DNA from: Sthenelais limicola
Lineage: Eukaryota > Annelida > Polychaeta > Phyllodocida > Sigalionidae
Direction: 5' to 3'
Assembly: GCA_942159475.1 (NCBI GenBank)
Contig: OW804096.1
Location: 11,333,871 to 11,397,870 of the forward strand
DNA length: 64,000 nucleotides
The notes under the pieces were generated by a model. The model saw only the letters and a program-made list of their open reading frames with translations. It searched no databases and was not told where the DNA came from. The position numbers and the translations under genes are program-made. Shown piece after piece: positions 28,171 to 61,221 of the stretch. How positions within the stretch are numbered: position 1 is the stretch's first letter; every line of letters begins with the position of its first letter.

Positions 28171-28197
28171 ACATATCAAAGGGTAGCAAGCACATAT

Positions 28198-34115: not shown

Positions 34116-35254
34116 ATAGTTTAAAAGTTGGTTCAGCCAAAACAAGCGATAAAATTGTTGATTTCCAGATCGGTGAGGAGTTGACTACTGACCAGAAGTC
34201 TCAATTGTTAAATCTGTTGCATGAAAATGAGAGTGCTTTTGTCGGTAAGGATAAAAAGCTTGGTTTAACAACAGAATATGAACATAAAATCGAATTGAAA
34301 CCTGATTTTAAACCTTCTATGAGACAACCACATCGCATGAATCCTGTTATGTCCAAGGTCATGGAGGGTATTTTAAAGGAACAGGTCGAGCAAAATTTAA
34401 TAGAGAAATGTGTCGACCCAGTTGAATTTAGTTCCCCATGTTTTCTTGTTCAAAAACCAACTACAGCTGATGGAAAGAGGGTGTGGCGTCTTGTGATCGA
34501 TTATAGGCAAATAAATCGATCCATCAAGGATGAAATTAGGGCTTTCCCACGTGCTGATGACACTATAGAAGCAGTCGGACAGACCCAGGGACGATTTTTT
34601 TCTCGCTTAGACGCATTCACTGGTTTTCATCAAGTCGGTTTAAAGGATGAAAATAGATATATCACAGCTTTTAACTCTCCATTGGGTGTCTACAGGTATA
34701 AGGTTATGCCTATGGGATTAAAGACTTCTCCCAAAGTGTTTCACTCTTTAATTGAACATGTTTTACAGGCAGTCCCAAATGCTTTTTATTATGTCGACGA
34801 TGTGGTTATAGCATCTCCAACTTGGGATATGCATGTAAGGGACATTAAGAATGTGTTTGGTGCCTTTGCCAAGGCAAATATTAAATTCAAGAAGGAGAAA
34901 TGCTCATTTGGTTTGACGAGAGTCCCATTCCTGGGCTTCATAGTAGACAAGGATGGAATTCACCCAGATCCAGCTAAACTAGACGCTTTATGATCCTTTC
35001 CCCGACCAAAATCGGTGAAGCAGGAACGGTCTTTTGCTGGGCTTGCTAATTACTACAGGGTGTTTATACCAAATTTCAGTCAAATTATGAAACCTTTATA
35101 TGTACTTACAAAGGCAAAAGTAAAGTTTGTCTGGTCAACCGAAGCTGAAAATGCATTTAATAAAATCAGGAATGCTATTCTAGAGGATGCTGTTTTGGTA
35201 TATCCAGACTATTTAAAAGAATTCATCCTGGCTTCGGATGTTACCAAAGTTTAG
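34052..35254 (+). pseudogene. pol: Reverse transcriptase of the provirus
   Basis: Contains the LVIDYRQIN block, FSRLDAFTGFHQV, FNSPLGVYRYKVMPMGLK and the catalytic YVDD (near 34,790). A TGA at 34,991-34,993 interrupts the frame, which then continues through the connection region (SFAGLANYYR) to a TAG at 35,252-35,254. These motifs are characteristic of Ty3/Gypsy RT. Confidence 0.9.
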
Positions 35255-36326
35255 GGGCCTGCATCAGTCAGGCTGATATTAATGGTAATTTACAACCCAT
35301 AGCCTTTGCAGGAAGAGGGTTAACCCCTGCTGAGCAAAAGTACAGTGCTACTGAAAAAGAATTGGCTGGATTACGTTTTGCTCTGAGCAAATTCAGACAC
35401 TATGTCATGTCTAAGCATTTTACCATTTTAACTGACCATGCAGCTCTTACTGCCATAAATACAAAAAAGGATTTGACAGGTAGAATGTTCAGATGGCTCG
35501 GTTTTTTTGGCCATTTCGATTTTTCAGTGAAATATATCAAGGGAAAATTGAACGTAATTCCAGATGTTTTATCTAGAAGGGAATACAATCCTAATATTCC
35601 CACTGTCCCTCATGTTGAGATGAGGAAATCCGTTTCATTCAATCCCATTCACGCAACAAAATTATTCAAACAGGATGAGAAATGTGAGAATAATCCAATC
35701 ATGTTGTATAAAACCAGAACCATCCTCAAGAAGGATGTGACTGTACACGAATTAGATAATAGTGTATCACAGGAGCAAGCCTCCTCTCTCTCAGATATAC
35801 AGTTACCAGATTCTGTACCAATAACAGACAGTAGCATGGATATCTTGATAGCCCCAGTACAAACAAGGGCTCAGACACGTGCTGGTGATACTGTACGTGA
35901 TGACAGAGATAAACAGGATGGAGTTCCTCCCCCAAATAATGGTAATCAAGCTGTTAAGCCCCCTAGGAAGAGCAGATGTGATAATATCCCTAAAGCTAGA
36001 AAGACTAAGGCAAGGCCTGTAATCCCGCCAGGGAAAAATAACACGAAAACCAGGATAGGGGAAGAGGGTCCTGTATGTAAAGAAAACATTGATAGTCAGC
36101 TTAGAGTCCCATTCGATAAAGCTAAGTTGAAACATGACCAGGAAAACGATTTGTTTTGCACTCTTGATGACTGATTATCTCAAAGGTAAACAATTGCCCA
36201 AGAATCACGAGTTGACTTGATTAATCCTGACAACTCATGATATGTTTTTCATTCAAGATGAGATTTTATGTAGGCTCCCTAAAAGGACCAAAATCACACA
36301 ATTAGTCCGGTTCCTTGTGTAATTCT
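35255..36326 (+). pseudogene. pol: RNase H and start of integrase of the provirus
   Basis: After a frame shift near 35,250, the frame to 36,174 holds TEKELAGL, FTILTDHAAL and a KGKLNVIPDVLSR end, as in Gypsy RNase H. A Pro/Lys-rich linker follows. Beyond 36,174, another frame encodes the integrase N-terminal pre-domain, with stops, up to the insertion point at 36,326. Confidence 0.8.
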
Positions 36327-37080
36327 GTAGGGTATTGATGGAGAAAGTGAAAACTATACATTTTCGGAAACGTCAGGACCCATAGATTATGAAAACCAAT
36401 GTTGCCCAAAACGTGTCGGCCATCTTGGCCGCCATATTGGACAATCTAAGATGGCCGCCATTCCAAACCTATTTATGCACATAACTATCTTATTACTGGT
36501 CATAGAAACTTGATTTTGGTGTCTACACCAAGGTTTTCAAGGTCAAGGAATACAATGAAGATATCTATTTGAGTCTGTCATGTGTCGGCCATCTTGAAAT
36601 CCAAGATGGCCACCATTCCAAACATTCTTTTGCTCATAATTTTTTATAATAGAAACTTGATTTTGGTGTCTACACATAGGTTTTCAGGGGCAAGGAATAC
36701 AATGAAGATGGTTAATTGGGTCTGGCATGTGTCGGCCATCTTGAAATCCAAGATGGCGGCCATTTGGAAAATGACTGTTATTGTAAGAAATCTCAAATCC
36801 AGTCCAACTTCTTACTCTTTTACAATAGAAACTTGATTTTGGTGTCTACACATAAGTTTTCAGGGGCAAGGAATACAATGAAGATGGCTGATTGGGTCTG
36901 GCATGTGTCGGCCATGTTGAAATCCAAGATGGCCACCATTGAAAACATGCTTTTGCTCATAAGGTCCTTATTAGATGTCATAGAGACTTGGTTTTGGTCT
37001 CTACACCTAGGTTTTCAAGGTCAAGGAATGCAATGAAGCTGTCTGATTGGGTCTGCTATGTGTCAGCCATACTGAAATCT
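36327..37080 (+). repeat. Left terminal inverted repeat with tandem subunits
   Basis: Units near 36,418, 36,583, 36,730 and 36,908 each contain GGCCATCTTG...CAAGATGG dyads followed by GAAACTTGATTTTGGTGTCT. Confidence 0.85.
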
Positions 37081-37292
37081 AATATCTAGAAATTCCCAAA
37101 TTGGATTTCATGATGGCAACTTCTTTTACCCTTTCGCATTATTATTATGTCACAGATAATTGATACTTGGCTAAGCCTTGTTATATGGGCAGTTTAGGTT
37201 GTATTGGGGCTTTTAGGTTAAATTGTGAAATAATCTTAAACAACCCCTTAATGCAATGAAAGGTTTTCTATTTGTCTGAGTTGATATAATAT

Positions 37293-38877
37293 GTGGTTTT
37301 ATTCATAGTTACCTCTGGCAGGGCCAGAGTCACATATGGGGTCCCTCAGGGAACGATGCTGGGGCCTCTCCTATTCCTGCTGTACATAAATGACCTCCAC
37401 AGAGTCATCAAACAGTCACAAGTACAACTCTTTGCAGATGACACAGTGATGTTCCACTCGCATCCACAGGGAGAAGCTTTATACAAAGAACTCCAAGAGG
37501 ACCTGGATGCAGTGGGAAAATGGTACACACTGAATAAAATCTCAGTAAATGTACAAAAAAGTAAAGCCATGAGCATAGCCCTGCGTAAAACAAATACAAA
37601 CAGAAACACCAACGCATTAAGCCTTAACAACCCTGACTTGGAACATGTCACACAATACAAATACCTTGGCCTAGAAATTGATGACGGTCTAACATTCAAC
37701 CCACACCTAACCTCAAAAATAAAGCAGGGAATATAGAGGCTCAGAGCCACTGCCAAAATCAATCAGGCCCTCACTAGTAAAAACACAATCCTTATCTATA
37801 AAACCATGGTACGCCCGGTGTTTGACTTCTGTGACATGTTCTATGCCCCGGCTCAGAAAAAACACCTAGACAGGCTGCAATCAATACAAAACTCATTCCT
37901 AAGATTAGCATACAACAAGAAAAAAACAGATAGCGTCAAGGAAATCCACTCACAGATAGAGATGGAATATCTCAATGAGAGGAGAGACTCACACCTTCTC
38001 CACCTAGCATATGAGATGAGTCGTGACAAAAGATACCTTGACAACAGAAAAATCAATCTGCGAAGTCTGGCAAAGAGTAAAGTCCTAAAAATACTAATGA
38101 CAAAAACTAAAAGGATCAGAAAATCATTCATAGTACAGGCCCCAACCCTTTTCAACAAAATTCCACCGGCTGGGAGAAACTGCCCAACCCTGGTTGAATT
38201 CAAAACCTATCTCGAAGAAAACTTCTTCTCCCACACGGGATGATGGAGAGACCCCAGCCCCAATCCCTCTTGGGTAGACCAGAGAGTGTTATAGAAACTA
38301 GTCAAAATATATGTACAAATGTAAAAATGAAATGTAAAGGGTTGGATGTAAAGAGAGGACAGTGTTCGGCAGAATGCTACTCCACATGCATCTAAGCCCT
38401 CTAGTCCCCAAGACAATTTAAAGGATGTATAAACAGCAGTCAATGCAGTGTTCGTAAGAATGCCAAGACCTAGCTGGATCTGAAAATGGGATAGACTACC
38501 TATACAAACTCATGACCCATTTTTTCTCAAACTTCATTACTCATCACAATAAGTTAAAGTAAAAGAAAAAGGATGATGTCCGAAAAGAATGACACAAAAA
38601 CCGTATGTAACAGGTCACACCCTGATAAAACTATAGCTAGTGCATCCCATTGCAGTAGTGTAGGTAACTAGTCACTTAATACCTCTATATCTGTAAACTG
38701 TAATTTATGACTCTAGTCTAAACTATAATTTAAAAACTCTAGTCTAAAAGGGACCCTCTGGAAGAGCTGTGGCTGCCACAGAAGAGGGCTGATCCCATTT
38801 CCGGTGTAATTATTTTATACATGTATACCTTCTCATGTACTGTTTTCCGGAAATAAACAATATACATACATACATTT
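37293..38877 (+). mobile_element. 5'-truncated LINE fragment with RT C-terminal half
   Basis: Starts inside the RT at GVPQGTMLGPLLFLLYINDL, followed by LFADDTVMF, and runs to a TGA at about 38,243. One in-frame TAG lies at 37,734-37,736; otherwise the frame is open. The remainder is a 3' UTR ending in AATAAAC and an ATAC microsatellite tail (38,860-38,876). This is a different lineage from the LINE at 0.65-7.5 kb. Confidence 0.85.
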
Positions 38878-39290
38878 ATATTGGGAAATTTATTTACCTA
38901 AGCACAATATGGATGCTCTTTTCTCAGACTACAGATTTCCTTACATAACATGCATTACCTGTAATAGGCCAGCGGCCAAGGGCCAAAAGCCTATCCCTAC
39001 CCTCTAAATGGCCTGTTTCCATGGAAACTAGTGATTTTTTTGTATTTTAGCAAGAAATAGGTTTTTGTGTCCCATATCTACACTTTTGTCAGCATTGTGA
39101 CCAAATTTGGGAATAGTGATGGTGTATCTAACTGTTATCATTTCTTTTTGAAGCAATAACTTGATCATGGTCACGGTCACCAAATATGACCTTGAAATAT
39201 AAAAATAGCAAAATTCTGGGATGTGACATCCTATTTTCTCTTATGAAAATATGGCAATAGAGGAAAACGGTAACCTAATGCATACAATAA
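38878..39290. other. Interior of the large element, no gene seen
   Basis: No convincing frame or repeat identified here. Confidence 0.4.
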
Positions 39291-39487
39291 TACCGTAGTG
39301 GCCCGTTTATAAGCCGGGACCTGTTTATAAGCCTACCTCAAATACAGACTGGGGGTGTAGGGGTCATGAAAAAATAAAATCCACTGAAATTTAATTATCG
39401 ATTAAAAGCCTATCTCAATTGCAAGCCGGGGCAAGAGGGGGGTCTAAACAAATACAAGCCCGGACTTATGAACGGGCCACTACGATA
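39291..39487. mobile_element. MITE with CCGTAGTGGCCCGTT ends
   Basis: Inverted ends CCGTAGTGGCCCGTTTATAA and its near-complement, flanked by TA; about 195 bp. Confidence 0.8.
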
Positions 39488-39764
39488 ACTGACATTAGGG
39501 AAAGAAAAATAACCGATTTCTGGTATCATTGGAATGTCTGTTGTCATGATAACTAAGCCTTACTTTTCATTCTACACTAAATTTTGTGTAAATCTAAATT
39601 ACAAACTGCTGTCTATATCTTGAACAATTTATTTCAAGATGTATCAAGGTAAGTGGGAATATCACTGTTGTGACACGCCCTGCAAAGGTCTTATATACCC
39701 CCTAAATAAGACCTGTTTTTGCAGAGCAGGTCACTTATATTGTTAAGCCTGGTATGTTGGTTGT

Positions 39765-39965
39765 GGGATGATGGTAGGTACACTCTGTCCAGCCTCTGTA
39801 GAACCAAGACTTCAATGAGTACTGGTATAGGCTAGCATTGGGGTTTTGGTGCTTCATAGGCTGGACAGGGTGTAGGTACTAAAACCCCTTTATGTTAGAA
39901 TTTGTTTATTTCATCACTAGCTTTCGGGCTAAGTTGCCCTTCTTCCATTTATTTCAAGGTTAAAG
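39765..39965. repeat. Small foldback plus hammerhead-like stem
   Basis: ACACTCTGTCCAGCC and GGCTGGACAGGGTGT form an inverted pair (39,779-39,871). On the minus strand, 39,905-39,955 includes GAAGAAGGGC, a 6-nt loop, GCCCGAAAGC, a motif often seen near 3' ends of invertebrate retroelements. Confidence 0.45.
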
Positions 39966-40084
39966 GGAATGGTCCCTGAGAGTACAGGGCAATATACAGG
40001 CAAAACGAGGATCACACATCACATCAATGGTATTGGAAAGGGGCCATTAAACAATATGGAGGTTATCATATGGGGACAATTAAA

Positions 40085-42262
40085 CAACAGCAGCATAGAG
40101 GGTAAAGTGGTGGTTATAGGGCATCATAAGAGGGTATAATAGTGGTTATGCCATAACATAGAGGGTATAACGATGACAGGGCGACCTGTCTTTCTGAGAG
40201 GCTGCCAGTTTGTCATTTACTTAGTGGACACTTGGTCTAATAATAATAGTCATGCAGTAACATAGAGGGATTAATGGGGTCATGGAGTAAAATAGAGGGT
40301 ATAATGGGGTCATGCAGCAACATGAAGGGTATAATGAGGGGTCATGGAGCAACATAGAGGATATAATGGGCATCACATAGCAGCATAGAGGGTATAATGG
40401 GGGTCATGATGTTTCATAGAGCGTATAATGGGGGTCATGGAACAGCAGAGATGGTATTGATGGAGGTCATGTGGCAGCATAGAGGGTATAATGGGTGTCA
40501 TGGAGTAATATGGAGGCCAAAATTTGTGTCATGGAGCAGCACAGAGGGTATCATGGGGGTCATGGAGCACTATAGATTCATCAGAGACTAACCTCTTATT
40601 CTGTAACTTTTTTATAGAATAAAAGTTCAATATATGATGGGGGTTATACAGAAGCATAGATGGTATAATGATGGTTATGGAGCAGCAAAGAGGGTGTAAT
40701 GATGGTCATGGAGCAACATAGCAGGTATGATGGGGGTCATGGAGCAATAAAGAGGGTATAATGGGGATCATGGAATAACATAGAGGGTATAATGATGGGG
40801 ACCATAGAACCCTATAGATAATATATGATGGTCATGGGATAGCAAGGAGGGTATAATTATGGCCATGGATCACTATAGAGGGTATGATTGGGGTCATGGA
40901 GTAATATAGGGGGTATAATGGGGGTCATGGAGAAGCATACAGGGTATAGTGTGGTCATGGAACAGCATAGAGGGGATATTGATGGTCATGGAGCAGCATA
41001 GATGGTATAACAAAAGTCATGGATCTCTATACAGGGTGTAATGGGGTCATGGAGCAGCATAGCGGGTATAATGATGGTCATGGAGTAACAGATACTGTAA
41101 ACGTATTTATTTTTGCGCGGATAATTTTTTGCGCACTAAGTACTTTGACACCTTTTCGCACGGATTTAAATTCGCACAACAAGGAAGCCTCATGCCATGT
41201 TTATAATTATAGGTTTGTGCAGGATTTAAATTCTCACACATAGGGGTGTGCGAATGCGCGAACATTAATATGTTTACAGTATACAGAGTGTATTAATGGG
41301 TGTCATGCAGTAACATGGAGGGTATAATGGGGGTCATGGGGCAGCATAGAGGAAAGAATAGGTGCCATTGAGTAACATTGGGTGTATAACATTGGGTCAT
41401 GGAGAAGCATAGAGGATGAAATGGGGGTCATGGAGCAGCAAGGTGGGTATAATGTGGGTCATGGAGCACTATAGAGGGTTTGATGGGGCCATGGAGCACT
41501 ATAGATGGTATAATTATGATCATGGAGCAGCATAGCTGGTATAATCATGATCAGGGAGCAACATAGAGTGTATTATAGTGGCCATTGAACAGCACAGATG
41601 GTATATTGATGGTCATGGAGAAGCACAGAGGGTATAATAGAGATCATGGAGCTCTATACAGGGTAAAATTGGGTCATGGAGCAGCATAGAGGGTATAATG
41701 ATGGTCATGGAGTAACATATATATACAGAGGGTATAACGGGGGTCATGGAGCAGCATAGAGGGTATAATGATGGTCATGGAGCAACATAAAGGGTATAAT
41801 GATGGGTCTGGAGCAATATAGAGGGTATAATGATGTTCATGGAGTAACATATATATATACAGAGGGTATAATGGGGGTCATGGAGCAGCATAGAGGGTAT
41901 AATGATGGTCTTGGAGTAACATACAGAGGGTATAATGGGGGTCATGGAGTAACATGGAGGGTATAATGATGGGTCTGGAGCAATATAGAGGGTATAATGA
42001 TGGTCATGGAGCCCTTTTATTTGTCTGAGGGTATACATAAGGATCAACAAAGGGGTCATAGAGCAGCATAGAAGGTATAATGATGGCCATGGAGCAACAT
42101 ACAGGGTATAACAGGGTTATGGAGCAACATACAGGGTATAATGGAGGGTCATGGAGCAGCATCGAGGGGATAATGCGGTCATGGAGTAACATACAGCATA
42201 TAATAGGGTCATGGGGCAACATACAGGATATAATAGGGTCATGGATCAGCATGTGGAAGATG
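40085..42262 (+). repeat. Minisatellite, about 30-bp unit (GGGTATAATG...CATGGAGCA)
   Basis: More than 50 imperfect copies of a unit built from GAGGGTATAATGATGGTCAT and GGAGCAACATA. Unit length and sequence vary; several higher-order repeats occur near 41,690-42,020. It is interrupted at 40,590-40,640 by unrelated sequence and at 41,092-41,282 by a MITE. Confidence 0.9.
41092..41282. mobile_element. MITE inside the minisatellite
   Basis: Ends ATACTGTAAACGTATTTATT and AATATGTTTACAGTAT with TGCGCG subterminal motifs and TA at the edges. Confidence 0.8.
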
Positions 42263-43594
42263 ATTAAATCACTGGGAAAGACTAGCGACACCAGGAGAGA
42301 CTGGATTCAAATTGTGCAGCTTTTGCCGGTGGGCTCTGCGGGCATGAAACACGGTCCGGTACACCCATGGGGCTGCACAGGAGGTTAAGTTGTGGAATGC
42401 AGTCCAGGAACGGATGTGAGACAGAATAGGAGACAAGCCCGGACACACACCAAAGTGCTTACAGCCTATACCACAACTTCGAAAGAATGGCATTGCCTTG
42501 GATAACATCTGGAATGGCCTTGACTGTAGGTGGAAGGGGGTCCACATATGGCGCTGCCCCTGGAAACCTACAGTTGCTAAGTGGAGCCTGATCAGCTCTG
42601 CTGGGGCACCTCTTGAAGAACACCAGGTACAGTCTAAGCCCCGAAACCTGGCAAGAGGAAGACTGCTGAAGAAGCGGTTAAAAGGCAATGAGAAGCATGC
42701 GCAGCATGTATTGCAATCTCTGAATCTCACAGTTTCATTTCAAATGTTCCTATTATTTCAGTTATTGTCGCACATTCACAAAAATTGAAATGTAGGTTCT
42801 TCTAGAATTAATCTTGTGGGATCAGTCATTTTTATCTGATAAAGACTGTATTTACTCCATGTTTTCATGGTAACAGGATGTGATATAGTTGTGGTCTATA
42901 GCATAGCAATTCCTACACTTTGTTGCAACAATATAATGTGAAAAAGATGCCAATCTTGTTCTCATGCTTGGTCTTATGTTTTGAGGCATACCCTCATGTT
43001 ATATTTAATAAAATATAGACCTTCCTCAGGTATATATGACAACCATTGTATTGTGATGTTGCTAGGGGAAGCCATCTTAAAAAAGTCTTGGCACTAAGCT
43101 TTGCATTCAAATAATACCATGGTAAAACCATGAATAGGGTGTTCAAAAACAGAAAACCCAGGCTGGATTTGAGATCTTAAGGTCTTACAATAACAGTCAT
43201 TTTGAAAACGGCCACGATCTTGGATTTCAAGATGGCCGACACATGCCAGACCCAATTAGCTATCTTCATTGCATTTCTTGCCGTCACATGACTAAGTTTT
43301 GGCCACCCAAGGGGTGCCACTAGGTAACAATTAATTCCTGTAGGTGTCAACCCAGTCTCTCTATTTCAGAGAAAGGATGTATGCTCAAAACGGCACACAA
43401 ACACCTTTTTACAGTGATCTGATATATCTAGTCATTTCCGTTGCCACAGATCGCCATCTCAATACCTCTAGATTGATGTTTTAAAGTAACACAGTCATCA
43501 TAGCATGAATAAAGGAGTAATGGACGTTTTTCCCTCCTCTGCCATGTGTTGGCCCTGCTCATATGACTGGCAAAGTTCAGTAACCACTCCACTC
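42263..43594. other. Interior of the large element, no gene recognised
   Basis: GC-richer at 42,280-42,720 with open frames on both strands, but no recognisable product. From 43,190 the subterminal repeats begin. Confidence 0.4.
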
Positions 43595-43675
43595 AAGGGC
43601 CATAGCCCAGTGGATAGAGCACTGGCATTTAGAGTGAAGGTTTGGGAGTTCGAGCCTCGGTAGGGTCTCACAGCC
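43595..43675 (+). repeat. tRNA-derived SINE head (A and B boxes)
   Basis: TAGCCCAGTGG is a good pol III A box and GAGTTCGAGCC a good B box about 40 nt later. Acceptor and anticodon stems no longer pair well, so this is a decayed SINE or tRNA pseudogene rather than a working tRNA gene. Confidence 0.6.
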
Positions 43676-43859
43676 TTGTTTTTTTATCTCAGGATCGCGT
43701 AGATGCTGTTATTCTATACGAGAAGGACGGAGGGTGGGTTGGCATGGTTGGTGGCAATGGGAAAGGCAGGAGAAACAACATATACATATAGAGTTTACAG
43801 ATAAATACCCATCGATCATCAGGGCTATCGATATGACTAAAGGAGAAAAGAGGCCTCCC

Positions 43860-44787
43860 TGCCCGCGCTAGCAATGGCCACTCTTCCTGGACCCTGAAAA
43901 CATATGTGTAGACACCAAAAGCAAGTCTCTATGAGATCTAATAGGGAACTTATAAGCAAAAGCATGTTTTCAAGGGTGGCCATCTTGGATTTCAAGATGG
44001 CCAACACATGCCAGACCCAATCAGCCATCTTCATTGTATTCCTTGACCCTGAAAACCTATGTATGGACACCAAAATCAAGTTTCTATGATAACAAATTAC
44101 GAAGTTATGAGCAAAAGAATGTTTGGAATGGTGGCCATCTTGGATTTCAAGATGGCCGACACATGCCAGACCCAATCAGCCACCTTCATTGTATTCCTTG
44201 CCCCTGAAAACTTATGTGTAGACACCAAAATCAAGTCATGGCATTAAGCAACCATTACTCACTCCAAAATCAAGTTTCTATTATAAAAAGTAAGAAGTTA
44301 GACTGGATTTAAGATTTCTTACAATAACAGTCATTTCCCAAATGGCCGCCATCTTGGATTTCAAGATGGCCGACACATGCCAGACCCAATTAACCATCTT
44401 CTTTGTATTCCTTGCCCCTGAAAACCTATGTGTAGACACCAAAATCAAGTTTCTATTATAAAAAATTAAGAAGTTATGAGCAAAAGAATGTTTGGAATGG
44501 TGGCCATCTTGGATTTCAAGATGGCCGACACATGCCAGGCTCAAATAGATATCTTCATTGTATTCCTTGACCTTGAAAACCTTGGTGTAGACACCAAAAT
44601 CAAGTTTCTATGACCAGTAATAAGATAGTTATGGGCATAAATAGGTTTGGAATGGCGGCCATCTTGGATTGTCCAATATGGCGGCCAAGATGGCCGACAC
44701 GTTTTGGGCAACATTGGTTTTCATAATCTATGGGTCCTGACGTTTCCGAAAATGTATAGCTTTCACTTTCTCCATCAATACCCTACA
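43860..44787 (-). repeat. Right terminal inverted repeat with tandem subunits
   Basis: Units contain TCAAGATGGCCGACACATGC near 43,996, 44,145, 44,362, 44,516 and 44,690. The outermost 300 bp match the left end almost base for base in reverse complement. Confidence 0.85.
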
Positions 44788-45968
44788 GGGGCAACTTCAT
44801 GTACATAAGAACCCTGACTAAATTGGCTAATTGTTTCCAAATAGTAATTCCTGAGGTATTACAGAAGCCTTTGATTCGATTCGTGCATGCTAAATCATTA
44901 GCTGCACATGTAGGATATGCAAAGACCCTTTCTCTGCTTCAAGCTAGGTTTTATTGGACATCGATGGCCAAGGATACTAAGATGCACGTAACCTCTTGTC
45001 ACGAATGTTTGATGTCTAAAAGTGTTAAACATCCAACCAGATTGCCCTTGAAGATCAGAGAAATGGCGCCCGCACCCTTTAGCATGCCAATGATAGACGC
45101 GATGGGTCCTTTGCCTAGAACGCAAAGGAACAATTGCTATATACAAGTGGTGACGGACCAATACTCAAAGTTTTGTTTTATCTGGCCGACTCCTGCGATT
45201 ACAGCAGAAAGAGTCGCTGCAGAATTCCACAAGTATGTAATCGCTTATGTGGGTGTTCCTAAGATTCTTAGAAGCGATAATGGGGCATGAATAGGAGAAA
45301 CATTCAGAGATGAATGCAAGGCTTGGGGAATTAAGCAGGTACACGGTTCGCCGTATTTAAGTCGATCACAGGGACAAGTGGAACGCCAAAATCAATCGAT
45401 TATTGGTTGTCTAAGGACAATGGTCTCTAGAAGTCAAAAAGATTGGGATTTATTTTTACCCAATATCCAATTTGCATTAAACGCTTCAGATCAGTACACA
45501 ACTGGCATATCTCCATATCTCCTGGCCTTTGGAAAAAATCCAATAATTCCTGCAGAAGCCCCACTGCAAAATGATATCTCCCATACCCACCCGATCATCG
45601 ACCAAATGTTACAAATAATGAAGACAAAAGCTGAAGCAGATGCTATTGCAGAAAAAAGCAGAAACGACAGGGAGAAAAAGATGAAAGACTGACACGATGA
45701 AAAGAGTAGACCTCATATGTTGGATATTGGTTCAATTGTTTATGCTACGGTCCACAGATTGTTGGTACCAAATACAGCAAAGAAATTGCAAAATCAATAC
45801 GTTGGCCCATTCATCGTGTGCGGATTCCCCTCTCCTTATACAGTAAAAATAAGAAATCTTGAAACAGGAGCAGAGGTAAAAAGGCCTGTTCATGTTCAAT
45901 TCATAAAGAAGTCAAGTGCTGCAGATAACAAGTTAGTTGATCTGTTGAAACGTAATATTCAGACATAA
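44788..45968 (+). pseudogene. pol: Integrase of the provirus, after the insertion
   Basis: Resumes with the HHCC-type zinc domain (HVGYAKTLSLLQARFYW, HECLMSK), then the DDE core: a first Asp in PMIDAMGPLP, LRSDNGA, and a Glu in GQVERQNQS. A C-terminal beta-barrel-like region has YVGPF. One frame holds throughout, with stops at 45,288-45,290 and 45,690-45,692. Confidence 0.85.
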
Positions 45969-46754
45969 TTCCAGATTAAGTGACACATCCGCATGTAATT
46001 TAGATGGCTTGTGAAATTCTGTAAACGGAATTAGCAGGGTTTGATTCAAGTAAGATAGATGGTTCTATTATGTAAGTCCAGTAGGATGAAACGATCTATT
46101 GTATTATGCAAGAAGAGAGGGATATGGGTGGTGCAATGGTTCCTGGTAGACGCCCCTTTTTCTATATATGGTTAGGATTGATATTCTTCTATGGAGTCAG
46201 TCCTCAGCCTCAAGCTGCGATTGGTCAAGATTATTCAGTGCTTGAGTTGGTCATCTTTGCTATGTCCAACTGATTCAGGCCCTTCCATCCAGTGGCTGTG
46301 TACCATTGGGGACACCCAGACTGATTGTTTTATTTTTCACGTTTCGTGAGCTGCCTTTATTACAATCTCAACGATAGTTCATCATGTTTCTTTCAATAAT
46401 CTGGTAGGTGTCATTCGTATCTTGATTTATTTCACTTGTTATTTCAATGTTTATACGAACTGCCCTGAACGCCTGGAATTTACACATGGATATCACGGAT
46501 TATTTCTTTATATGTTGATACGTTTATATGTATGCATGACTTCGATATTTGGTGGTGATACTTAACGTAAATACTAACGTCACCCACTAGAATATTTATG
46601 TAGAAGATAACCCTATCCACGTATAGGATATGAGTTATCTGATTATTTCACTTATATTAGTCGTATATATTTTTTTTTTATTATTATTTTGAGAAAGTCT
46701 AAAACGGACTTCTGTTTTTCTTTTTTGACTTTCTCTTTTTCTCGTATTATTTAG
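45969..46754 (+). other. Provirus pol-env spacer
   Basis: No long frame. A pyrimidine-rich tract at 46,715-46,750 ends in TTTAG, a good splice acceptor directly before env. Confidence 0.6.
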
Positions 46755-48850
46755 GGTAGCCTGTCTACTCTCTTGGACGAATGCAGAATATCTGATCAAA
46801 CAGAATTATGGTGTGGCATTTGGAAAAATGCACAAGCCAGTTCTGATCGATGTGGAGGAAATATATGTACATGTATCGGTGCCGACAGTAATTTTGCCCC
46901 CTAACAATACGATTTGCCCCCTAACAATACGATTTCCATTTCGGAAAATCAGTACAATTTAACCTCAGAAATGAGAACAATTCGGACCAAAATTGAAGTT
47001 TTGTTAACTCGTGTCTTTGACACGGCCCTAACATTATTTAACAAGATAGAAAGCATGGCTAGTTCACATGGTGGTAGGTCTAGATGAAAGGCATTATTGC
47101 AACCAGTAGGCGATTTGGTTTCTGTTGGCCTGGGTCTGGCTACTGATCCTCACTTATCACAAGTTGAAAATAAACTGGATGCTATGATTAAAGGGTTGTC
47201 ATTTGGCGACATATCAAATGTTAACAGGGATAAGATAATTTTGAGTCTGACTAAGCAATTAAAATTATTATTTAGGCACGCCACTAAACACAACAGAGAA
47301 GTGGGAGTTTTGTTTATAAATTCGTCAAAAGAAATAACCAATCTGACAGAGCAGATAGATAACTTCGTGCAGAATCTGACTGCAGAGTCAACTAACACCA
47401 TGGCATTACATGCCATGTTACATGAAACCACTCTGAATCTGCTGGTGTTAATAGAGTATATATCGATACGGCTAGATTGTTGATCAGAGGATTAGACAGA
47501 TTAAATCAGGGTGATTTACCCGATATTTTCTTGCCTATGGGCGGTTTGAGAGCCTTGTTAAGACCATTGTCTAAAGAAATTGGATCAAAATTCCCTTCAG
47601 CCACGATTTTGGACGATTCGTTGGACCCCTCCTACACTAAGGTGGTGGAATATCATTTCTTGAACAATTCTCTCTTGATAACAGTGCCTATTATTCTTAA
47701 ATATAACGACGACTTGTGTATGGCTTACAGACCTGTGCGATTCGGTGTTCCGATCCACACTAGTTCAAATGACTCAACGGGGTATACCTTGCTAGACAAT
47801 GAGATACCTTATCTATTGGGTAAATGCTCGCGACAAGGGATATATTTTGAGTTGAAATCACATGCTTATGAGCAATGTACTCAACCGAGTCGCTCGGTGG
47901 TGTGTTTTACTCCCCCAGTGAGAATTTTAGCAAATCGCAACACCTGTTATTCGGCGATCTTCAGAGATTTAGCCTCAGAAATAGGAAGATTATGTACTTT
48001 CAATACCTTGTTAACCCACAAAACACCATTTTTTCAACTGGCGATTAATAAAATCCAACATTTGGTAGTAGGCAGAGAAACCAGATCGGCTCTCTCTTGC
48101 CTTCAGCGACCCAGAACGAAAGTTGCGATGAGTTTGTTGGCTATTGTCAAAATTCCTTGTGATTGTTCCTTAATCTCTGGATCAGTGGTAATATCTGCCC
48201 CTAGAGATAGGTGTATTACTTGGAACGACACAAATATTTTTGTAGAATCAGGGTTTAACTTAGCTATCGCTGTTATATTTAAAATTCCATTCAAGAATGT
48301 AACTGGTGAAACGAAACATGGCTCCAGAATACACATTAACCTACCCTCTCCTCAAGACATGCATGCAGCCTTGTCACATTTACCATCTTCCTTGATAACA
48401 TCAGGAATTAAAGTAGAGAGGCTAGCGAATGAGTTACTGGTGGCGGACAAAATTGCTAATAATAGATGGGAGACTCTGAAGAAATCTATAAATACAATGT
48501 CTACCCATCCAGCCACCATAAACGTGGCCTTAATCATTGGCATATTGGTGACTATTTTCTCTGTTTATTTGTTCTATAGGATCCCCAAATTGGCTATCAT
48601 ATGCACATTTGTGAGGCCCATTCAGGCGTTTAAACTGAATCTCTCAGCACCAGTATTTGAAGATATAAATCTGGGCTTCGACATACCCACCCCACAGCCG
48701 ATCACAGAAGATTTGAGACCTTACTTTCCACCAAACCCTATCCATGCTATTTTAAAAATTTGTGCAGCAATCATTGCTTTCAAAATTGTATTATTCCTCT
48801 GGAGGCATCGTCGATGCATATGTAATTACTTCCCTCGATGCCTAGTATGA
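46755..48850 (+). pseudogene. env: Envelope (F-like/Gypsy env) of the provirus, frameshifted
   Basis: Encodes the membrane fusion glycoprotein homologue. From the acceptor at 46,754 a short N-terminal piece (YGVAFGKMHKP) resembles the start of Gypsy/errantivirus and baculovirus F-type envelopes. It is broken near 46,950; the frame 47,097-47,483 has heptad-like helices; a shift near 47,440-47,480 leads to a 457-codon frame (47,477-48,850). GLDRLNQGDLPDIFLP fits the conserved F-protein/Gypsy env block, and a hydrophobic segment near residue 350 (VALIIGILVTIFSVYLF) is the likely membrane anchor. A 20-bp tandem duplication lies at 46,894-46,933. Not functional. Confidence 0.7.
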
Positions 48851-51701: not shown

Positions 51702-53099
51702 ACACCACACCTGGTAACGAGTGCACCAGTCTATGACGTCATAGGCCGTAGCGAGGTGAAAGAGACCGTCGCCAAGTGAGAGTTCCTTCTCTCATTACAT
51801 GGTAGCAGTACCGAAGGGAGCAGAGGTGTCTAGCTTTGTCACATATATTTTATATATTATATTCCCTGCAATGATAATAACAATAATAACAATGCTAAAT
51901 ACTCTGAATGTTGGCAATAATGGCCTGAGCCAGGTGCTTTTTCCCATAGAGACCAATGCTATTTTGTGAAAAATGTCAAAAAAAGTCAAAATCTCAACAA
52001 GTACACAGTCCCTAGGTGGGGGCTTTTCAGGAAATGATTCCCAAAGTGTCCCGCATCATATTATCCAAAAATCAGCTTTACATTATTTTATTCCGGGTTC
52101 CATGCTAAAATGCCTGTGCTAAAAGGTGTATATATGGCCAATTCCACCAATTTGACAACATTTGGCCCCCTAGACCCCCCCTGGGTACCCAAAAATAATT
52201 TTTACATTAATTTTACATTTAATCAGTTGATTTGTTATTTTTTATCAACCTTATATATATGTGCATTGAACTACCAAGTATGGAACCATTCTGATTATTA
52301 GTAATTTTTGTACAGGGGGGTCGAAAAATAGATCCCAAATATGAAAAAAATGCCAAAAATAGCATGTCGAATAATGGTTCATATTTCTACATAAATTAGA
52401 ATTTAGATAGAAATAAATAAAATAAATATGCACATAATGTGTACTTGATAGGTCTCGACATAAGGGTGATAACACTTTTTAGTTTGCGAAAATATTCTAA
52501 CTAGAAGAAAAGTTAGAGCCAAATAACCATTCAGTAATGGTAATCATAATGGCAGCGGTAAGGGTGACAGGTCATTGATCCTCTGCCCATATATAATGTA
52601 CACACATTACATATATAATGTACACACATTATATAACTCATTGTAGTGATCTCGGGTTCTACACTTAGCTAGAATAAAGACGAACTAGATATTTAACCTG
52701 TTGCATCCATTTATTCCACATATCTTACTCTCTTGACCAACCTCGACCACTGGTAGTGGTAGAATACATAAATCCCAGGGTGTACAATAAAAGCAGGTGT
52801 TACAAGAAGACAGGTAAGATTGTTAAAAGATCCTTCAGACATAACATGCTGGATTTAGCACCGATAATTGACTAGATACAAATGCAGGTTTATGGTAAAA
52901 CAATATGTAAGATCAAGACATGGATTACGAGTTACAAGGACTAAAATCATATGGAAGGTAGGAAATGTGAAACACCAAGATTCGTTACGTAATAGGTGCT
53001 GCTTTGGCAACCCGAGCCCGAACTGTCAAACAGCGTGATTCCGAGAACCCGCTTCCGAAGACAGCTCGGACTCCGAGATTACATAGAATAACAAGGAAA
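51702..53099. other. Spacer, no gene seen
   Basis: AT-rich. A 24-bp tandem duplication around 52,590-52,630 and an ATATGGCCAATTCCACCAAT segment at about 52,133 that recurs inverted at about 56,838. No complete LTR could be recognised for the Gypsy remnant that follows. Confidence 0.45.
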
Positions 53100-54789
53100 C
53101 CAGAATATGAAATATATAAAACCACCACAATGACATGACAATGCTGACGCTTTATCACGCCTACCCACCCGAAGATGTGGTCGGTCGGATTGCTCGGATT
53201 GTGGCATCCATGATGCTGTAATTGCCACCACTGCTGTAGCCTTGGGGACAAAAGACCAGGTGCTAAGTGATGCGCAAAAAGCCGATCCGCTCATAAAGAG
53301 ATTGCTGGACATGGTTGATGGGAGTAGGCCAATTCCTAGTCGGGAAGACCTGGCCGGGGAGTCAGATGAATTCCGAACTTATGTCCAGCATTTGGGTAAC
53401 ATGGAAGTAAGGGAAGGAGTGCTATGCCTGGGGTGGACAAGGCTAGCCACTGGAAGAAAGTACTGGAGGAAACTCATTCCTGAACCACTTAGGAAGGAGA
53501 TCTTTCAGGGCATGCATGGACCTAAGATCGCTGGTCATTTCGGGACATTTAAGACTTCATGGTCAGCCAAGATGAAGTATTATTGGCCTGGGATGCGCTA
53601 CGATGTACAGAGGTGGATCCGAGCTTGCCCTGAGTGTAGTATGAGAAAGTCCAGAGGGGGGAGAGGCATCTCTCTCCTGAAGAAAGAAAAGCATGGGGAT
53701 AGGTGGAATCGCATATCACTGGATATCCTAGGGCCTCTACGAACTACGCCTAGGGGAAACAGTTACATTATGGTGGTAACTGACCACTTTTCTAAGTGGG
53801 CAGAAGCCTACCCCATGATAGACCACACAGCGGAAAGTTGTGCAGACATCCTTTTTAGGGAATAGATTTTGAGATTCGGGTGCCCTGTAGCCTTACAGAC
53901 AGATGGAGCTCCCGAGTTTCGATCACAACTCTTGAAGAGTTTGTTAGACATGTTGGGGGTAGAGAAATTGATAACTCTCCCCTATAGACCTATGTCCAAT
54001 GGCCAGAGCGAGAGACTAAATAGAGTCCTTGTAGAGCAATTGTCTTGTTTAACAGACGGAAAGGATGAGAACTGGGATCTGCTGGTACCTTGTATAGCCC
54101 ATGCATATCGAGGGACTGTGCATGCCAGCACCCTTTGCACCCCGAACTCCGTGGTTTTTGGGACAGAACTGGTGGAGCCCATGGATATTGTCTATGGTGT
54201 GACACCAGGAGAACTGGATTTCCGATGTAAAGTCGCCTTTGTGGAAAGCCTAAAACAGCGAATGAGGAAGGGGCATCAGTGCATGCGAGATAATCTCGGA
54301 ATTTCTGCAGTTCACCAGAAAAGGGATTATAACAAACGTTCTAGACCCCCGAGATTCCAGGTGGGGGAGGTGGTATACCGATTCTGTCCCCCAAAGGCCA
54401 GTAAAAAGATCGGTCCCAAATGGGATGGGCGTTATGTGATAAAGAGATTCATAGGAGGTACCACCTGTGAATTAGAAACAGCTGAAGGTCTTATGCGATA
54501 CCATATAGACTACCTGAAACCCGCTTTTGATGAGAATGGGCCGATACAAGCAGCTAATCTGCATCGGTCTCATGAATTTCAGAAGTTGGAGGCAGCTGGT
54601 AGGGACGTATTGAGACTAGAAGCTGGGAAAGTGATAGCTGGGAAGGAATGTAAAGTTTCTGCCCCGGGAGAGAAATTAACTATTGGAGTCAAGCCAAGAG
54701 GCAGGCCCCGGAAAATAAGAGCTCCCGATGAACAGAAAAAGTCGGGAAGTCGACGGCGCCACTGTCGTGGTGGCGGGTTAGAGCACTAA
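53100..54789 (+). pseudogene. pol: Gypsy RNase H end and integrase, remnant with one stop
   Basis: Begins in the RNase H tail (HDNADALSRLP with a stop just before it), then an integrase with zinc-domain HFGTFKT...CPECSMRK, an Asp in SLDILGPLR, QTDGAPEF and a Glu in NGQSERLN. The C-terminal region has VGEVVYRFCPP and RYHIDYLKPA. A TAG at 53,866-53,868 splits the frame; the second part ends with TAA at 54,787-54,789. No gag, RT or clear LTRs. Sequence differs from the provirus integrase, so it is another lineage. Confidence 0.85.
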
Positions 54790-55921
54790 CGTTGGTCAGT
54801 ATGCTGGGTCGGTGCAGCTGGCTGACTACTGTCCTTATATACAAGAATTCTCCTGGAAGAAAGGCGAGGAATTCATATGTGGTTCTCGCTGTAGCCTTGA
54901 TTCCAATAATGCAGATGCTGAAATTAATTATATGCTAGAGAAGTACGGGAATAAGTCAGCCTGCTTCGAACAACATCTAGCGGCCTGCCGAATCCATTCC
55001 GGCAATGGGAACCATATATCGGGTTACGCGGGGGAAGGTGTAGCCGATGCAGACTTCATTCTCTATGTATCAGCCTTCTCTACTGACCGATGTTCCATCG
55101 GCACCACAGTGGCTTATGCTGCCTACTGTCAACTAGAAGCTGCCTTTGACAGGCCTGTTGCTGGATATGTCAATCTTTGTCCAGATTCAATATCTCTGAG
55201 GCCGCATGATATTCATCAGATGGTTTCTACAATCAAACATGAGATTCTCCATGCATTGGGATTTTCCGCTGGTCTTTATGCATTTTACCGAGACGCTATT
55301 AATGGCCACCCGCTCACACCTAGAACTAAAGCAACTAGGGAACCGCCCTACAACAAGACAATCGGCCTCTACCAATGGTCAGACAAAATTGCGAGGACTG
55401 TAGTACGTGATGATTGGATGGTACGCAAAGGCGTCGTGAGAAAAGAGGCTACGATGATTGTCACCCCAAATGTTGTGAGGGAAGTGAGAGCTCACTTCAA
55501 CTGTTCAACTCTGGAAGGAGCTGAGCTTGAGGACCAGGGAGTTCATGGCACCAAACTGACTCACTGGGAAAAGCGTGTCTTTGAGAATGAAGTAATGACG
55601 GGTACCTACACACAGAATCCTACCACATCCCGCATCACACTTGCACTTATGGAGGATACAGGATGGTACAAGGTAGATTATTCTAAAGCCGAGACACTTA
55701 TTTGGGGTCGAAACCTTGGCTGCGATTTTGTCACCAAAAGTTGCCTGCATTGGATGGACCTCAGAGGGAAAAGGAATGAGCACATCCATCCATTTTGTAA
55801 CCGCGTGAAGAGGGAGAGTCTACAGACTGAATGCACTGATGAGCGAGATGCCGTGGCCCTCTGTAACCTCGTGCAGTACACTGGTGAACTGCCAGATGCC
55901 TACCAGCATTTCCATATTTAG
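54782..55921 (+). CDS. Leishmanolysin-like (M8) metallopeptidase, single exon, circularly permuted
   Basis: The open frame runs from 54,782 (no ATG at its start) to TAG at 55,919-55,921. Counting from 54,812, HEILHALGF at 143-151 is the HExxH zinc site, H251 in LTHWE the third ligand and MTG at 262 the Met-turn, so the catalytic residues are intact. The regions DFILYVSA and AYAAYCQLEA match animal LMLN/invadolysin closely. However residues 1-56 (GSVQLADYCPYIQEFSW...EKYGNKSACF) correspond to the segment that normally follows the catalytic domain, and the frame ends at LPDAYQHFH, just where that segment should start. No introns interrupt it. Lacks signal peptide and most of the N-terminal propeptide. 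Likely a retrocopy or rearranged fragment; whether it is expressed is unknown. Confidence 0.8.
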   Translation, partial: STNVGQYAGSVQLADYCPYIQEFSWKKGEEFICGSRCSLDSNNADAEINYMLEKYGNKSACFEQHLAACRIHSGNGNHISGYAGEGVADADFILYVSAFSTDRCSIGTTVAYAAYCQLEAAFDRPVAGYVNLCPDSISLRPHDIHQMVSTIKHEILHALGFSAGLYAFYRDAINGHPLTPRTKATREPPYNKTIGLYQWSDKIARTVVRDDWMVRKGVVRKEATMIVTPNVVREVRAHFNCSTLEGAELEDQGVHGTKLTHWEKRVFENEVMTGTYTQNPTTSRITLALMEDTGWYKVDYSKAETLIWGRNLGCDFVTKSCLHWMDLRGKRNEHIHPFCNRVKRESLQTECTDERDAVALCNLVQYTGELPDAYQHFHI

Positions 55922-56842
55922 AATATATATAACATTCATTACCCTCGTTTACCTTTTGAAGTTGACTTGAATACTTCTATTGATTGTTCCTGTTCTGTTT
56001 AAGTATTTATTTTCAAGGATAAAGGTTCTAATATTATATATATGTGTTAGGGATACAATTTGTGACATTTTGTGATGGCAGACGTGACGTAGACGACGTG
56101 ACAAAGACGACAAATGCGTGACGAAGACGACAAAAGCAAATTGCAGTAAGAATCATGTAAAAACTACTCGGAAATTATTAATTTCGGTCTACATAGATTG
56201 CTATTAAGCAAAGTTAATAATAAATGTCAAATTTAAAGATTGTTATTAAATTTATACCTTATAAGGCTCTAAAAAACCTATAAAAGGTGTGACGTAGACG
56301 ACAGGTGCTATGGTACCCACTACCTTTTGCTGCCATGCTATTTCTCTGCTATGATTCAAGAAAAACTCAAATCAATACATTTGATGTTATAAACATATAT
56401 AATCCCCTGCATTTCATCATTATTCATCAAAGTTTATTTTTTTTTATTTTTTTTTAAAATGTACTCCACCTTAGGCACACAGCATGACGAAGACGACAGG
56501 GGGGTACCCATACAAAAAAATTCTGGTTTTTGATGGCTTTTGGCAAAAAAACAACTTTTTTGCAATTATTTTTACACAGATCATTTTTATGTAACCTACT
56601 ATACAACATGAAGTTCCAAAGTTCAATTTTGAAGATTATTTAGAAATTTAGCAATTCCATGGCAGTTTAAAACAACGATTTTTGCCGATTTTGAAATAAT
56701 GAAAAAATTGGGCTAAAAATGTGGTTCCACAGGTTGGTAGAACCATCCAATCAAAAAAAATATCAAATTAATGGTAATTAATTTGTTTTAAGCCCATTTT
56801 ATCACTTTTGTCACGGTTGTCAAATTGGTGGAATTGGCCATA
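55922..56842. other. Spacer with GACGAAGACGACA repeats
   Basis: Interspersed GACGTAGACGAC/GACGAAGACGACA motifs at 56,085-56,135, 56,290 and 56,485. T- and A-rich otherwise; no gene. Confidence 0.45.
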
Positions 56843-57252
56843 TGTGATGTGTTTCATTAAAATGAGTCATGAGTCGCAAAAAATAGATTTTGAGATACCA
56901 TTATATTTGAAAAGAGGAGATCAAACCGATTGCAATGATAGTAAACAGTCTAATAATTTAATAAGTATTTCTAGATTTTAAGTTTGATATTTTCGTTTTT
57001 GAAAAAAAAATGTTTCCAATATTTCTGGGGGTCAATAAACAGTAAAGTAACTAAATGTAGTCCATATGAAGACCTTTAAAACGAAAGGATATATACATAG
57101 ATTGTCCTGAAATTTGATACATTGATTGATATAGGTACAAGTGATAAACCCTCCAAAATTCAGAACATTTCAATAATGTGATTTTGTGAAAAGAACACTT
57201 TGAAAAATATCAATTTTGCGACTTATGACTCATTTTCCTAAAACACATCACA
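56843..57252 (+). mobile_element. F2 MITE
   Basis: Complete, TA on both sides. 57,253-57,660 holds no recognisable feature. Confidence 0.85.
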
Positions 57253-58080: not shown

Positions 58081-58315
58081 ATTAAGACAATAACTTGTCA
58101 GAATATCCTGACTGCGAATGAACCAAAACTAATGGTCACTTGTTTGTTTAGTCTAATGTATTGATATAACAAATATTATGACTCAACATAGCTTTACAAA
58201 CCCATTAATGCATCAATCATATTGACCTAAACTATACTGCGATGAATATATTAATCTACCCATTTGACATGCCTATTAATTTACCTGTAAAAAGTCAATT
58301 CTGCCATATATATAT

Positions 58316-58549
58316 GGGTCAGATTTTCAGAAAATGTACAATTGGCAGATCAAGGTATTTTGTAAATTCTGCTAAATTGGATTGAAAAATCATCAACACT
58401 AGGTATAAATGAGTGTATTTGTATTGCGTTGATTCAAACAGTCTATTTGGTTATGTTGAACAGTATTTTGAACTGTATTTTTGTCTTAAATTTGGGTTAT
58501 TTGAGAGAATTGGTGAAGGTGAATTGTACATTTTCTGAAAATCTGACCC
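58316..58549 (-). mobile_element. F1 MITE, subfamily C
   Basis: Complete, flanked by ATAT on both sides. Confidence 0.9.
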
Positions 58550-58873
58550 ATATATATGAATGACGTACAACCTAAGATCAATACATGAAGAAGCCTTGTC
58601 ATTGTGAATGTTTGGTCACCTACCTGCATATTGGTTATGTTAAGTTTGTTGATCTAGTATAATATTGCCCTTTGCGTATGCCTACATATCCGACCCATAG
58701 CCATATATTCACTGCACAAATTTATTGGGTAAATGTGGGTGACGTCGCCAGTCAGGGTATGATTCGCCTTCATCAATCTTGTCATATCTAACGCAAGTGT
58801 GAGACAAAAATGAGGTTAAAAAAACAGTTCAGTCCCCCTTCCCCCCCCCCCCCCCCCCCAAAAAAAAAAAAAA
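58550..58873. other. Spacer with poly-C/poly-A tract
   Basis: No gene seen; ends in about 17 C followed by about 15 A next to the truncated F4 copy. Confidence 0.4.
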
Positions 58874-58985: not shown

Positions 58986-59210
58986 AGGACAGGACCCCAT
59001 ACGGACATTGCCGCCTGTTGTTGATGTACACTGTATCTGGAATAAAGGTGGCGAATGCCTTGTTCTCTTACAAGTGAAGAGTGAACAGATTGGTGAAGGA
59101 AATACTCCTGCAGGCCAAGGTTAGGCTTGATCGTCGATACCACCATGAACTGGTGGCGACAATCTATGTGTTGGTGGTCATATCGAGGAAAGGCGATGTG
59201 GGCAATATGT
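58986..59210 (+). pseudogene. Degraded second copy of the provirus accessory ORF
   Basis: Translation contains AKVRLDRRYHHEL and YVLVVIS, matching the ORF at 48,896-49,270 in order and spacing apart from a short deletion and an upstream stop. It is not next to other provirus sequence. Confidence 0.55.
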
Positions 59211-59445
59211 GGGTCAGAATTTCAGAAAATGCACAATTGGCAACTGTACATATTTAGTAATTTCTGCTAAATGCTGCTTAAAAATGATAAATTTTGGTTT
59301 TGTCTGAGTATATTTCGTATTGCATTGATGTAAAGTATCAGTTCTGTTATGTTAAACTGCATTTTGAAATTTATTTCTGTCTTAAATGTGGGTTATTTGA
59401 GAGGATTGGGGAAGGAGAATTGTACATTTTCTGAAAATCTGACCC
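59211..59445 (-). mobile_element. F1 MITE, subfamily B
   Basis: Complete, flanked by ATGT on both sides. It sits at the edge of the degraded accessory ORF. Confidence 0.9.
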
Positions 59446-61221
59446 ATGTACCAAGTGCCTTGGTTTAGACAACCACATGGCTCCTGCATTATGATGCAAG
59501 TGTGCAATTTGCATAGCAATAGAGGAGTCCAGAAATGAGCCCGCTAGTATTTTTTTTATATTTTTTAATGTTTTTCATTTTGCTGTTGTATTTTTAATGT
59601 TGCTCACTTTGGACCCTACTCCCCCCCACTCCTCCCGCACCCCCCCCCCCTCCTACCTGCATGTCAATTGGGCAATTAGAGCCTGAGTTTATTGTCCGAG
59701 CACCCTCTAAGCCTGTCAGGAAGCAAATCCAAGGCCAAAGGCAGAGGGTGCTTCCGGCAGGCTTAGAGAGCCAGCGAGGACAATGGCTTTAGTCCCCTTT
59801 GGTTGGGCTGTTACAATCAACTTCTCACTAATCACTTCTCCTAAACCCTAAACATTGTCATAAGCATTTACTTACAGTTTACTTATGTATCATTCATCTC
59901 TAACCTTAAGCACTCTCTCTATTCAAGACCGGTAGTGAAAGACTGGTAGTGACGTACTGGGTTTGTATTTTACTAAAACAGTGAGGACAGTAGCTTCCGG
60001 AAGGGAACAATACCTGTCCCACCTTGGGTAAAAACCTCTTTACATACTATACACACAGCCCAGGTTACTGAATTACCTTACTTCAGTGCCTAAATAACCA
60101 CAGAATACTTCATAAACCTCTACTCATCCTCTATACAACCCTTCATGTGCACTTTCCCTAGCGCCTATGTCCGTTCCGTTTCACGTGCACGCTCCTACAA
60201 CAACACTTTTACTATACACCTGCCCTATATATGCTGTGCCGAAATGGCTGGGCTTCTATTACCCTCTTCCAACTCTTTATTTGGGTGATGCAGATAATTT
60301 ATGGGGTAAAACAATACTGCAATCATTTCTGCCGATTCAGATTTTTTATTGATTTCTTATTGGTCCCTAGACACACTAAAATGGCCGGAACACACCCATA
60401 GAACATGGCATTCGTAAACCGGAAGTCTTGGTGCCATAGAGGGCCAGTTGGCTACGTCCTCTTCCGCCATAGAATGGCCAGTGGTGTGTACTGGACCACT
60501 CTATGCCTTTATAATGGGCCCCGCCAGACAAATCAACGGGGACTAATTGTTGTTAATGTCTAATTCCGTGCTCCCCATGGCCGGGGTGAGCATGGGGTAG
60601 GCAGGGGTGTGGTGCTGTGGGGTGTGTGAAGCGATGTCAGTGAGTGAAGGGTGCAGTGTGTGGAGGTAAACATGGTGTGCATTTACGGACAGGGAGAGAG
60701 GGAGAGAGTGCATGAATGTTTTCAAATAAGGTTTTTGTCTACCACAACTGCTTTTCTTCCTCAAACCAAAAGGGCAGGAAACTAATTCAAGTTATCATTC
60801 AGCCTAACTACAGTTCGCAAATTACATGGGAAAACATGGAAAACACGGCCATAAATTTGGCTCATTCTTAGATGGGAGTCGACACTGATGGGTTGGGCGA
60901 CATAAGGAATTTGGAGATGGCCTGTCCACCCTCACAAAGGGCGGGTTGGTCGCTTTTCATTCAGAGAGTTTCTTTCATTATTCAATTTGATTAGTTTTTT
61001 TTAGGGACAGAATAAGTTCCCTTTCAGATCGTTGTAATTTTTTTTTGATTTTCCGTCTTTTACTTTGCTATAAAGTATAGGGTCATTAGTAGATTACTAA
61101 TCAATCGTTAATTAGGTAATTAGGATAGACCTATATTGATTAGATATGATTATAGAATGGAAATATATCAAATATAGAGTCACCTTTTAAGTTAATCTGT
61201 ACGATAGCATAGAATTATATT
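59446..61221. other. Spacer, one small foldback, no gene
   Basis: A foldback of about 100 bp at 59,690-59,791 (ATTGTCC...AGCCTG and CAGGC...GGACAAT). Poly-C tracts near 59,620-59,650. No convincing coding sequence. Confidence 0.45.

Follow-up and report, generated by a model that had tools for sequence, protein, structure and literature searches.

How did an intron-free copy of a leishmanolysin-like (LMLN) gene come to carry its exons in circularly permuted order? Permuted exons in an intron-free copy can be read as the sign of a back-spliced circular RNA, and the initial annotation of the present locus offered that explanation: a back-spliced LMLN circle, reverse transcribed and opened elsewhere than at its junction. 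The locus lies in a window of 64 kb (C3:11333871-11397870), the whole stretch of DNA analysed here, from a genome of 1.13 Gb that the gene and its neighbours suggest to be an animal's. We describe a comparison of the copy with its parent gene, with related gypsy elements, and with other copies of the repeat in which it resides. Positions are those of the window unless prefixed with C4 or C6.

Results

An open frame with permuted LMLN exons

The features of the locus are as follows.

52131..52642, no strand: host repeat, left half; 8/8 copies align across the site
52642..53129, minus strand: complete Ty3/gypsy LTR of 488 bp (TG...CA), inverted relative to pol, identified by its match to the C4 LTR
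53130..53133, no strand: ATGA between LTR and pol; the first two nucleotides match the bases just outside the C4 LTR
53134..54741, plus strand: gypsy pol fragment with integrase, 97.5% identical to C4:27614798-27616401
54743..54794, plus strand: second gypsy piece of 52 bp, 98% identical to C4:27617199-27617250
54789..54966, plus strand: LMLN segment 1 (nt 35 onward of exon J, then the start of exon K), from the parent alignment
54966..54972, plus strand: permutation joint K to A with the near-repeat TYGAACA, mid-exon on both sides, no splice dinucleotides
54967..55915, plus strand: LMLN segment 2 (tail of exon A, B to I complete, nt 1-9 of J; includes HEILH), from the parent alignment
55914..56843, no strand: host repeat, right half, aligned with its copies across the site; supplies residue I and the stop TAG

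The open frame lies where the initial annotation had placed it (54782..55921), preceded by an in-frame TAG at 54779-54781 and closed by a TAG at 55919-55921. A Pfam search matched it to Peptidase_M8 (PF01457) at 3.3e-57, with residues 73-367 covering positions 158-398 of the profile. The zinc motif HEILH, of the HEXXH type, is read in frame, in line with the zinc site noted initially.

A six-frame search of the whole 1.13-Gb genome at E up to 0.001 returned 11 LMLN matches: the window and ten exon-sized matches, all at C6:43044841-43051951. The C6 locus, the sole other one among the matches listed, is the intron-bearing parental gene that the initial annotation had presumed, with its exons in normal order. 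Taken in C6 order, the ten matches correspond to frame residues 54-116, 110-150, 148-184, 181-232, 222-260, 255-285, 266-325 and 320-368, and then to 1-40 and 35-84; the last of these reaches only 49% because just the first part of that exon is present in the copy. Since the only other listed locus has the normal order, this correspondence establishes that the permutation is real, in agreement with the order first proposed.

The exons in the modelled part of the parent were named A (C6 43044270-43044387) to K (C6 43051806-43051936). The copy runs from nt 35 of J to the end of that exon, through part of K (∼51-58 nt) into the end of A, and on through B to I to nt 1-9 of J. By exact match, 16-17 nt from the end of exon A are present, and B to I are complete. 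The frame had been described as ending exactly where its first segment should begin, but nt 10-34 of exon J, 25 nt in all, are present neither at the end nor at the start of the copy, and the final residue (Ile) and the stop TAG derive from the target repeat rather than from LMLN. All ten introns between the included parts have been removed exactly, at GT-AG borders, and the alignment to the parent contains no intron sequence, so the copy is as free of introns as had been claimed. The ten exon pieces share 97-100% nucleotide identity with the parent and the short A piece matches at 18/18 nt, which excludes chance resemblance.

Outside the joint, copy and parent differ by six substitutions, all of them transitions (five silent and one Arg to Cys); the copy also carries 3 extra nt, inserted in frame. 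The LMLN copy is young. Its open frame is explained without selection, since the frame of the parent was kept and a jump preserves the frame one time in three. The pattern of five silent changes, one replacement and one in-frame insertion would also be produced by constraint on the parent or by polymorphism, so that no selection on the copy is claimed from it. The earliest in-frame ATG lies at 54932, 150 nt inside the frame, inspection by eye gives no sign of a signal peptide at the frame's start, and the inverted LTR upstream is directed away from it. For these reasons the copy probably has no function and, judged from its sequence, is probably a pseudogene. No known RNA family was matched in a scan of the 64-kb window.

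The permutation joint lies inside two exons

The joint between K and A is TTCGAACAACAT (context in the window CTGCTTCGAACAACAT, in exon K CTGCTTTGAACACATG, in exon A GTTCTCGAACAACATC). It had been placed near 54,980 and, on a circular origin, was to coincide with two exon borders. By exact match it lies at 54965-54966, extending up to 54972 if one mismatch is accepted. It falls within both exons, some 101 nt from the start of A and some 51-58 nt from that of K. The two sides overlap by 1 nt exactly, or by 7 nt with one T/C mismatch, where the copy has C and exon K has T, at C6:43051858. In a control of 200,000 random joints within the same exons, the chance of a 7-nt overlap with one mismatch was 0.0074. 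Neither GT after the K side nor AG before the A side occurs in any of the nine registers that allow up to one mismatch.

The initial annotation had also stated what would speak against a circular origin, namely a joint off the exon borders in tandemly duplicated DNA with intron remnants. The joint does miss the exon borders, whereas genome searches gave no tandem duplicate of LMLN among the matches listed and no intron remnants were found in the copy.

Gypsy sequence in the insert

The LTR is 98.8% and 99.2% identical to the two LTRs of an element copy on C4. The ATGA that follows it mirrors TCAT at 52638-52641 on its other side, and the two form an inverted 4-mer around the LTR. The pattern at the LTR/pol junction occurs once in the genome at ≤2 mismatches. 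The pol fragment contains an in-frame stop at 53863-53865 and an Integrase_H2C2 domain (69.7 bits, cut-off 25.5); its rve match (21.6 bits) is under the cut-off of 32.6.

The second gypsy piece originates ∼800 bp downstream of the pol piece in the C4 element, and the joint between the two pieces in the insert has no clear overlap. Ten of 20 gypsy loci were compared. Six of these ten copies contain both pieces, spaced about 780-800 bp apart in all six, so the deletion joint is absent from those copies; the other four have no match to the 52-bp piece within the compared stretch. Gypsy sequence adjoins LMLN directly, the former extending to 54794 and the latter starting at 54789. The six shared nucleotides, ACGTTG, are the last of the second gypsy piece and belong equally to LMLN exon J. 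Among random joints such an overlap has a chance of 0.0015, the gypsy side of the control being taken from a different part of the C4 copy, 7 kb long, that lacks the 52-bp piece. The pol piece, the second piece and LMLN have a common sense orientation.

Other gypsy-like pieces, encoding protease, reverse transcriptase and integrase, lie at 33345-48850 of the window, and a 457-aa frame at 47477-48850 without a Pfam match is envelope-like by eye.

The target site

The insert of ∼3.27 kb (about 52640-55913), with the LMLN copy at one end, interrupts a high-copy repeat whose outer ends carry an inverted match of 28 bp (52132-52159 and 56816-56843). Eight of the 35 repeat matches listed were compared, and in all eight the site is empty, the halves meeting at AACTCATT/ATATTTAG. 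The insert occupies a single target point, with no target-site duplication and no target base lost; together with the empty site, this is most simply explained by a single arrival of the ∼3.27 kb. At its right end (CATTTCCAT) LMLN shares AT with the target, and at the left end the target ATT is common to the LTR end and the two bases outside the LTR. By their sequence both target joints look like end-joining rather than integrase activity.

Two ordinary routes were considered and rejected. A LINE-type insertion or processed pseudogene does not agree with a copy that lacks both a poly(A) and a target-site duplication and whose right end is exon J joined to the target. Ordinary two-LTR integration does not agree with a single inverted LTR and, again, the lack of a duplication.

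Other features of the window

A frame of apparent LINE type with endonuclease and reverse transcriptase (1326-3590, minus strand) adjoins a 650-aa frame with a NADAR domain (5459-7411, minus strand; 2.2e-31), and the latter is possibly the first ORF of a LINE that took up NADAR. A 372-aa single frame (26564-27682, minus strand) has a weak match to the chemosensory receptor family 7tm_7 (6.1e-06, 26.2 bits, cut-off 26.6). The degenerate 31-bp unit AGAGGGTATAATGGGGGTCATGGAGCAACAT forms a long array at 40094-42252, and GC skew reaches 0.45 at 40001-42000. Repeats bounded by ATGGGTCAGATTTTCAGAAAATGTAC, or a variant of it, and its complement lie at 27934-28438 (in tandem) and, by eye, at 58310-58560 and 59210-59450.

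Discussion

Proposed template switching on a spliced host mRNA

In the reverse transcription of LTR elements, the first strand moves from the 5' end of the RNA to its 3' end at a repeat and ends at its primer. Such a first-strand transfer permutes any template. We propose, with a probability of roughly 0.55, that the copy arose when a gypsy reverse transcriptase switched templates on spliced LMLN mRNA and the product was end-joined into the genome. The mRNA would have entered a Ty3/gypsy particle, where first-strand synthesis would have started in exon J and run to exon A on the 5' side. There the growing strand would have jumped to K on the 3' side, with TYGAACA serving as a makeshift R repeat, and synthesis would have continued from K back toward J, ending 25 nt before its own start. 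At ACGTTG the enzyme would then have switched onto gypsy RNA and copied gypsy sequence. The resulting chimera, together with a loose LTR, would have been joined to a chromosome break without target-site duplication; the lone inverted LTR may be a separate piece of cDNA joined at that break.

The proposal is favoured by the ten exact exon junctions, by a joint without splice dinucleotides, by the low chances obtained for the overlaps at the permutation joint and at the gypsy/LMLN junction, and by gypsy pieces that abut LMLN in an insert occupying one target point. The points of entry into and exit from LMLN lie 25 nt apart, with a rough chance of 0.044 if the two were independent, a figure that is weak and post hoc. 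Such near-closure is to be expected if a single molecule was copied all the way around, back to where the enzyme had begun, and the gap may represent the footprint of the primer. Against this, no convincing tRNA primer site was recognised in the gap when it was compared by eye with a PBS-like stretch of the C4 element. RNA folding was rejected as a cause of the gap, because the surrounding 64 nt have an unremarkable fold (154/200 shuffles at least as good, z 0.70). The T/C mismatch at the joint offers a hint of direction: a first strand passing from A to K would have met it as a tolerated G-U pair between the cDNA and the K RNA, while the opposite move, from K to A, has an overlap of only 1 nt. 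The exact overlap, only 1 nt, counts against template switching, since reaching 7 nt takes either that mismatch or a base change that is allelic or arose afterwards; so does the lack of a clear overlap where the two gypsy pieces meet. The weakest part of the model is the LTR, which is single, inverted and intact at both ends, unlike what plain template switching would leave; an inverted LTR is of the kind known as a sense-antisense fusion.

A route through DNA, which we hold to be rather unlikely, would begin with a linear LMLN cDNA from mid-A to mid-K, circularised by microhomology end-joining, opened in J, where 25 bp were lost, and joined with pieces of gypsy cDNA into a double-strand break. 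Overlaps of 2-3 nt at the target ends, filler nucleotides, intact LTR ends and the lack of a target-site duplication would all suit such repair, and the circle accounts for the 25-nt closure. More separate steps are required, however, and the 6-nt overlap and common sense orientation of gypsy and LMLN fit a switching reverse transcriptase better. Alternatively, two independent LMLN templates or fragments could have been copied in tandem by the gypsy enzyme, A to J9 and then J35 to K, with near-closure by chance. Switching between element RNA and a separate cellular mRNA is described in passages of PMC5408686 on LTR-mediated retrocopies, but entry and exit within 25 nt would have a chance of about 0.04 on a simple model, and we consider this origin improbable.

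Reverse transcription of a back-spliced circle, the initial proposal, would explain why the copy is spliced, permuted and adjacent to gypsy sequence, and LTR sequences occur beside circRNA-derived retrocopies of the mouse according to part of a review (PMC5408686). It is nonetheless very improbable here: the reading fails its own test, since the joint lies at no exon border, and with GT-AG lacking in 9/9 registers canonical back-splicing is ruled out. What survives of the proposed RNA-mediated origin is the spliced, permuted copy, and what lacks support is the back-spliced circle as its source. A circle closed in some other way, for example by RNA ligation, is conceivable and would account for the 25-nt closure. 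Tandem duplication, here of the retrocopy, with later trimming of the outer parts is another classical source of a permuted order. Such a history, or an assembly error, is hardly credible when a second copy is absent among the matches listed and the insert fills an empty site with no target base lost; the unique LTR/pol junction and the six substitutions from the parent are likewise unlike a simple misjoin. Duplication of the gene at the DNA level was rejected, with ten introns gone and no further copy among the matches listed.

The locus offers a young permuted copy together with its parent, a target site matched exactly in its empty form, and a permutation joint that is no splice joint; the gypsy sequence beside it probably supplied the reverse transcriptase. 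As a tentative generalisation, the reverse transcriptase of LTR retrotransposons may be able to run the whole first-strand programme on a host mRNA, yielding permuted retrocopies without any circular RNA. If so, such retrocopies should be recognisable by a joint that lies within exons at microhomology and by a gap about the size of a primer. Should they recur, permuted retrocopies would need a check of the joint before being labelled circRNA-derived, and would record the template-switching rules of LTR elements in vivo.

Comparison with known systems

Among the titles listed from the open literature searched, none described a permuted retrocopy formed by template switching, and no paper was found there that linked a leishmanolysin-like gene to a retrocopy or to circular permutation. 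The first-strand jump of retroviruses is described in part of PMC1950507. As in that transfer, the growing strand proposed here would leave the 5' end of the RNA at a repeat, resume at the 3' end and thereby permute its template, whereas the template here is a host mRNA, the repeat is an imperfect 7 nt, and a primer is inferred.

Sections of PMC5408686 and PMC9674220 report that in animals the template is switched between LTR elements and cellular mRNA where short stretches of the two resemble each other; both cite the LTR-mediated chimeric retrocopies of Tan et al. 2016, and the latter paper adds Pxyfem of Plutella. As far as these accounts go, such retrocopies likewise fuse spliced host mRNA to an LTR retrotransposon with short homology at the switch. 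They are expected to lie between two direct LTRs with a target-site duplication, whereas LMLN is permuted and stands at the end of an insert with one inverted LTR and no duplication. The circRNA-derived pseudogenes of Dong et al. 2016, as summarised in parts of PMC5345220 and PMC5408686, resemble the present copy in that spliced RNA was copied in permuted exon order with LTR sequence nearby. Their joint is the circularisation site, as in circRFWD2 (exon 6 to exon 2), while the LMLN joint lies mid-exon at microhomology. Reverse transcriptases in vitro generate backward-jump exon shuffles and sense-antisense fusions, mostly at short repeats, according to portions of the work of Houseley and Tollervey (PMC2923612). 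Exon shuffling at short repeats without splice sites, here by a proposed backward jump, and sense-antisense fusion are common to those artefacts and to the insert with LMLN; the artefacts, in that account, are laboratory cDNA, whereas the permuted copy described here stands in a chromosome assembly.
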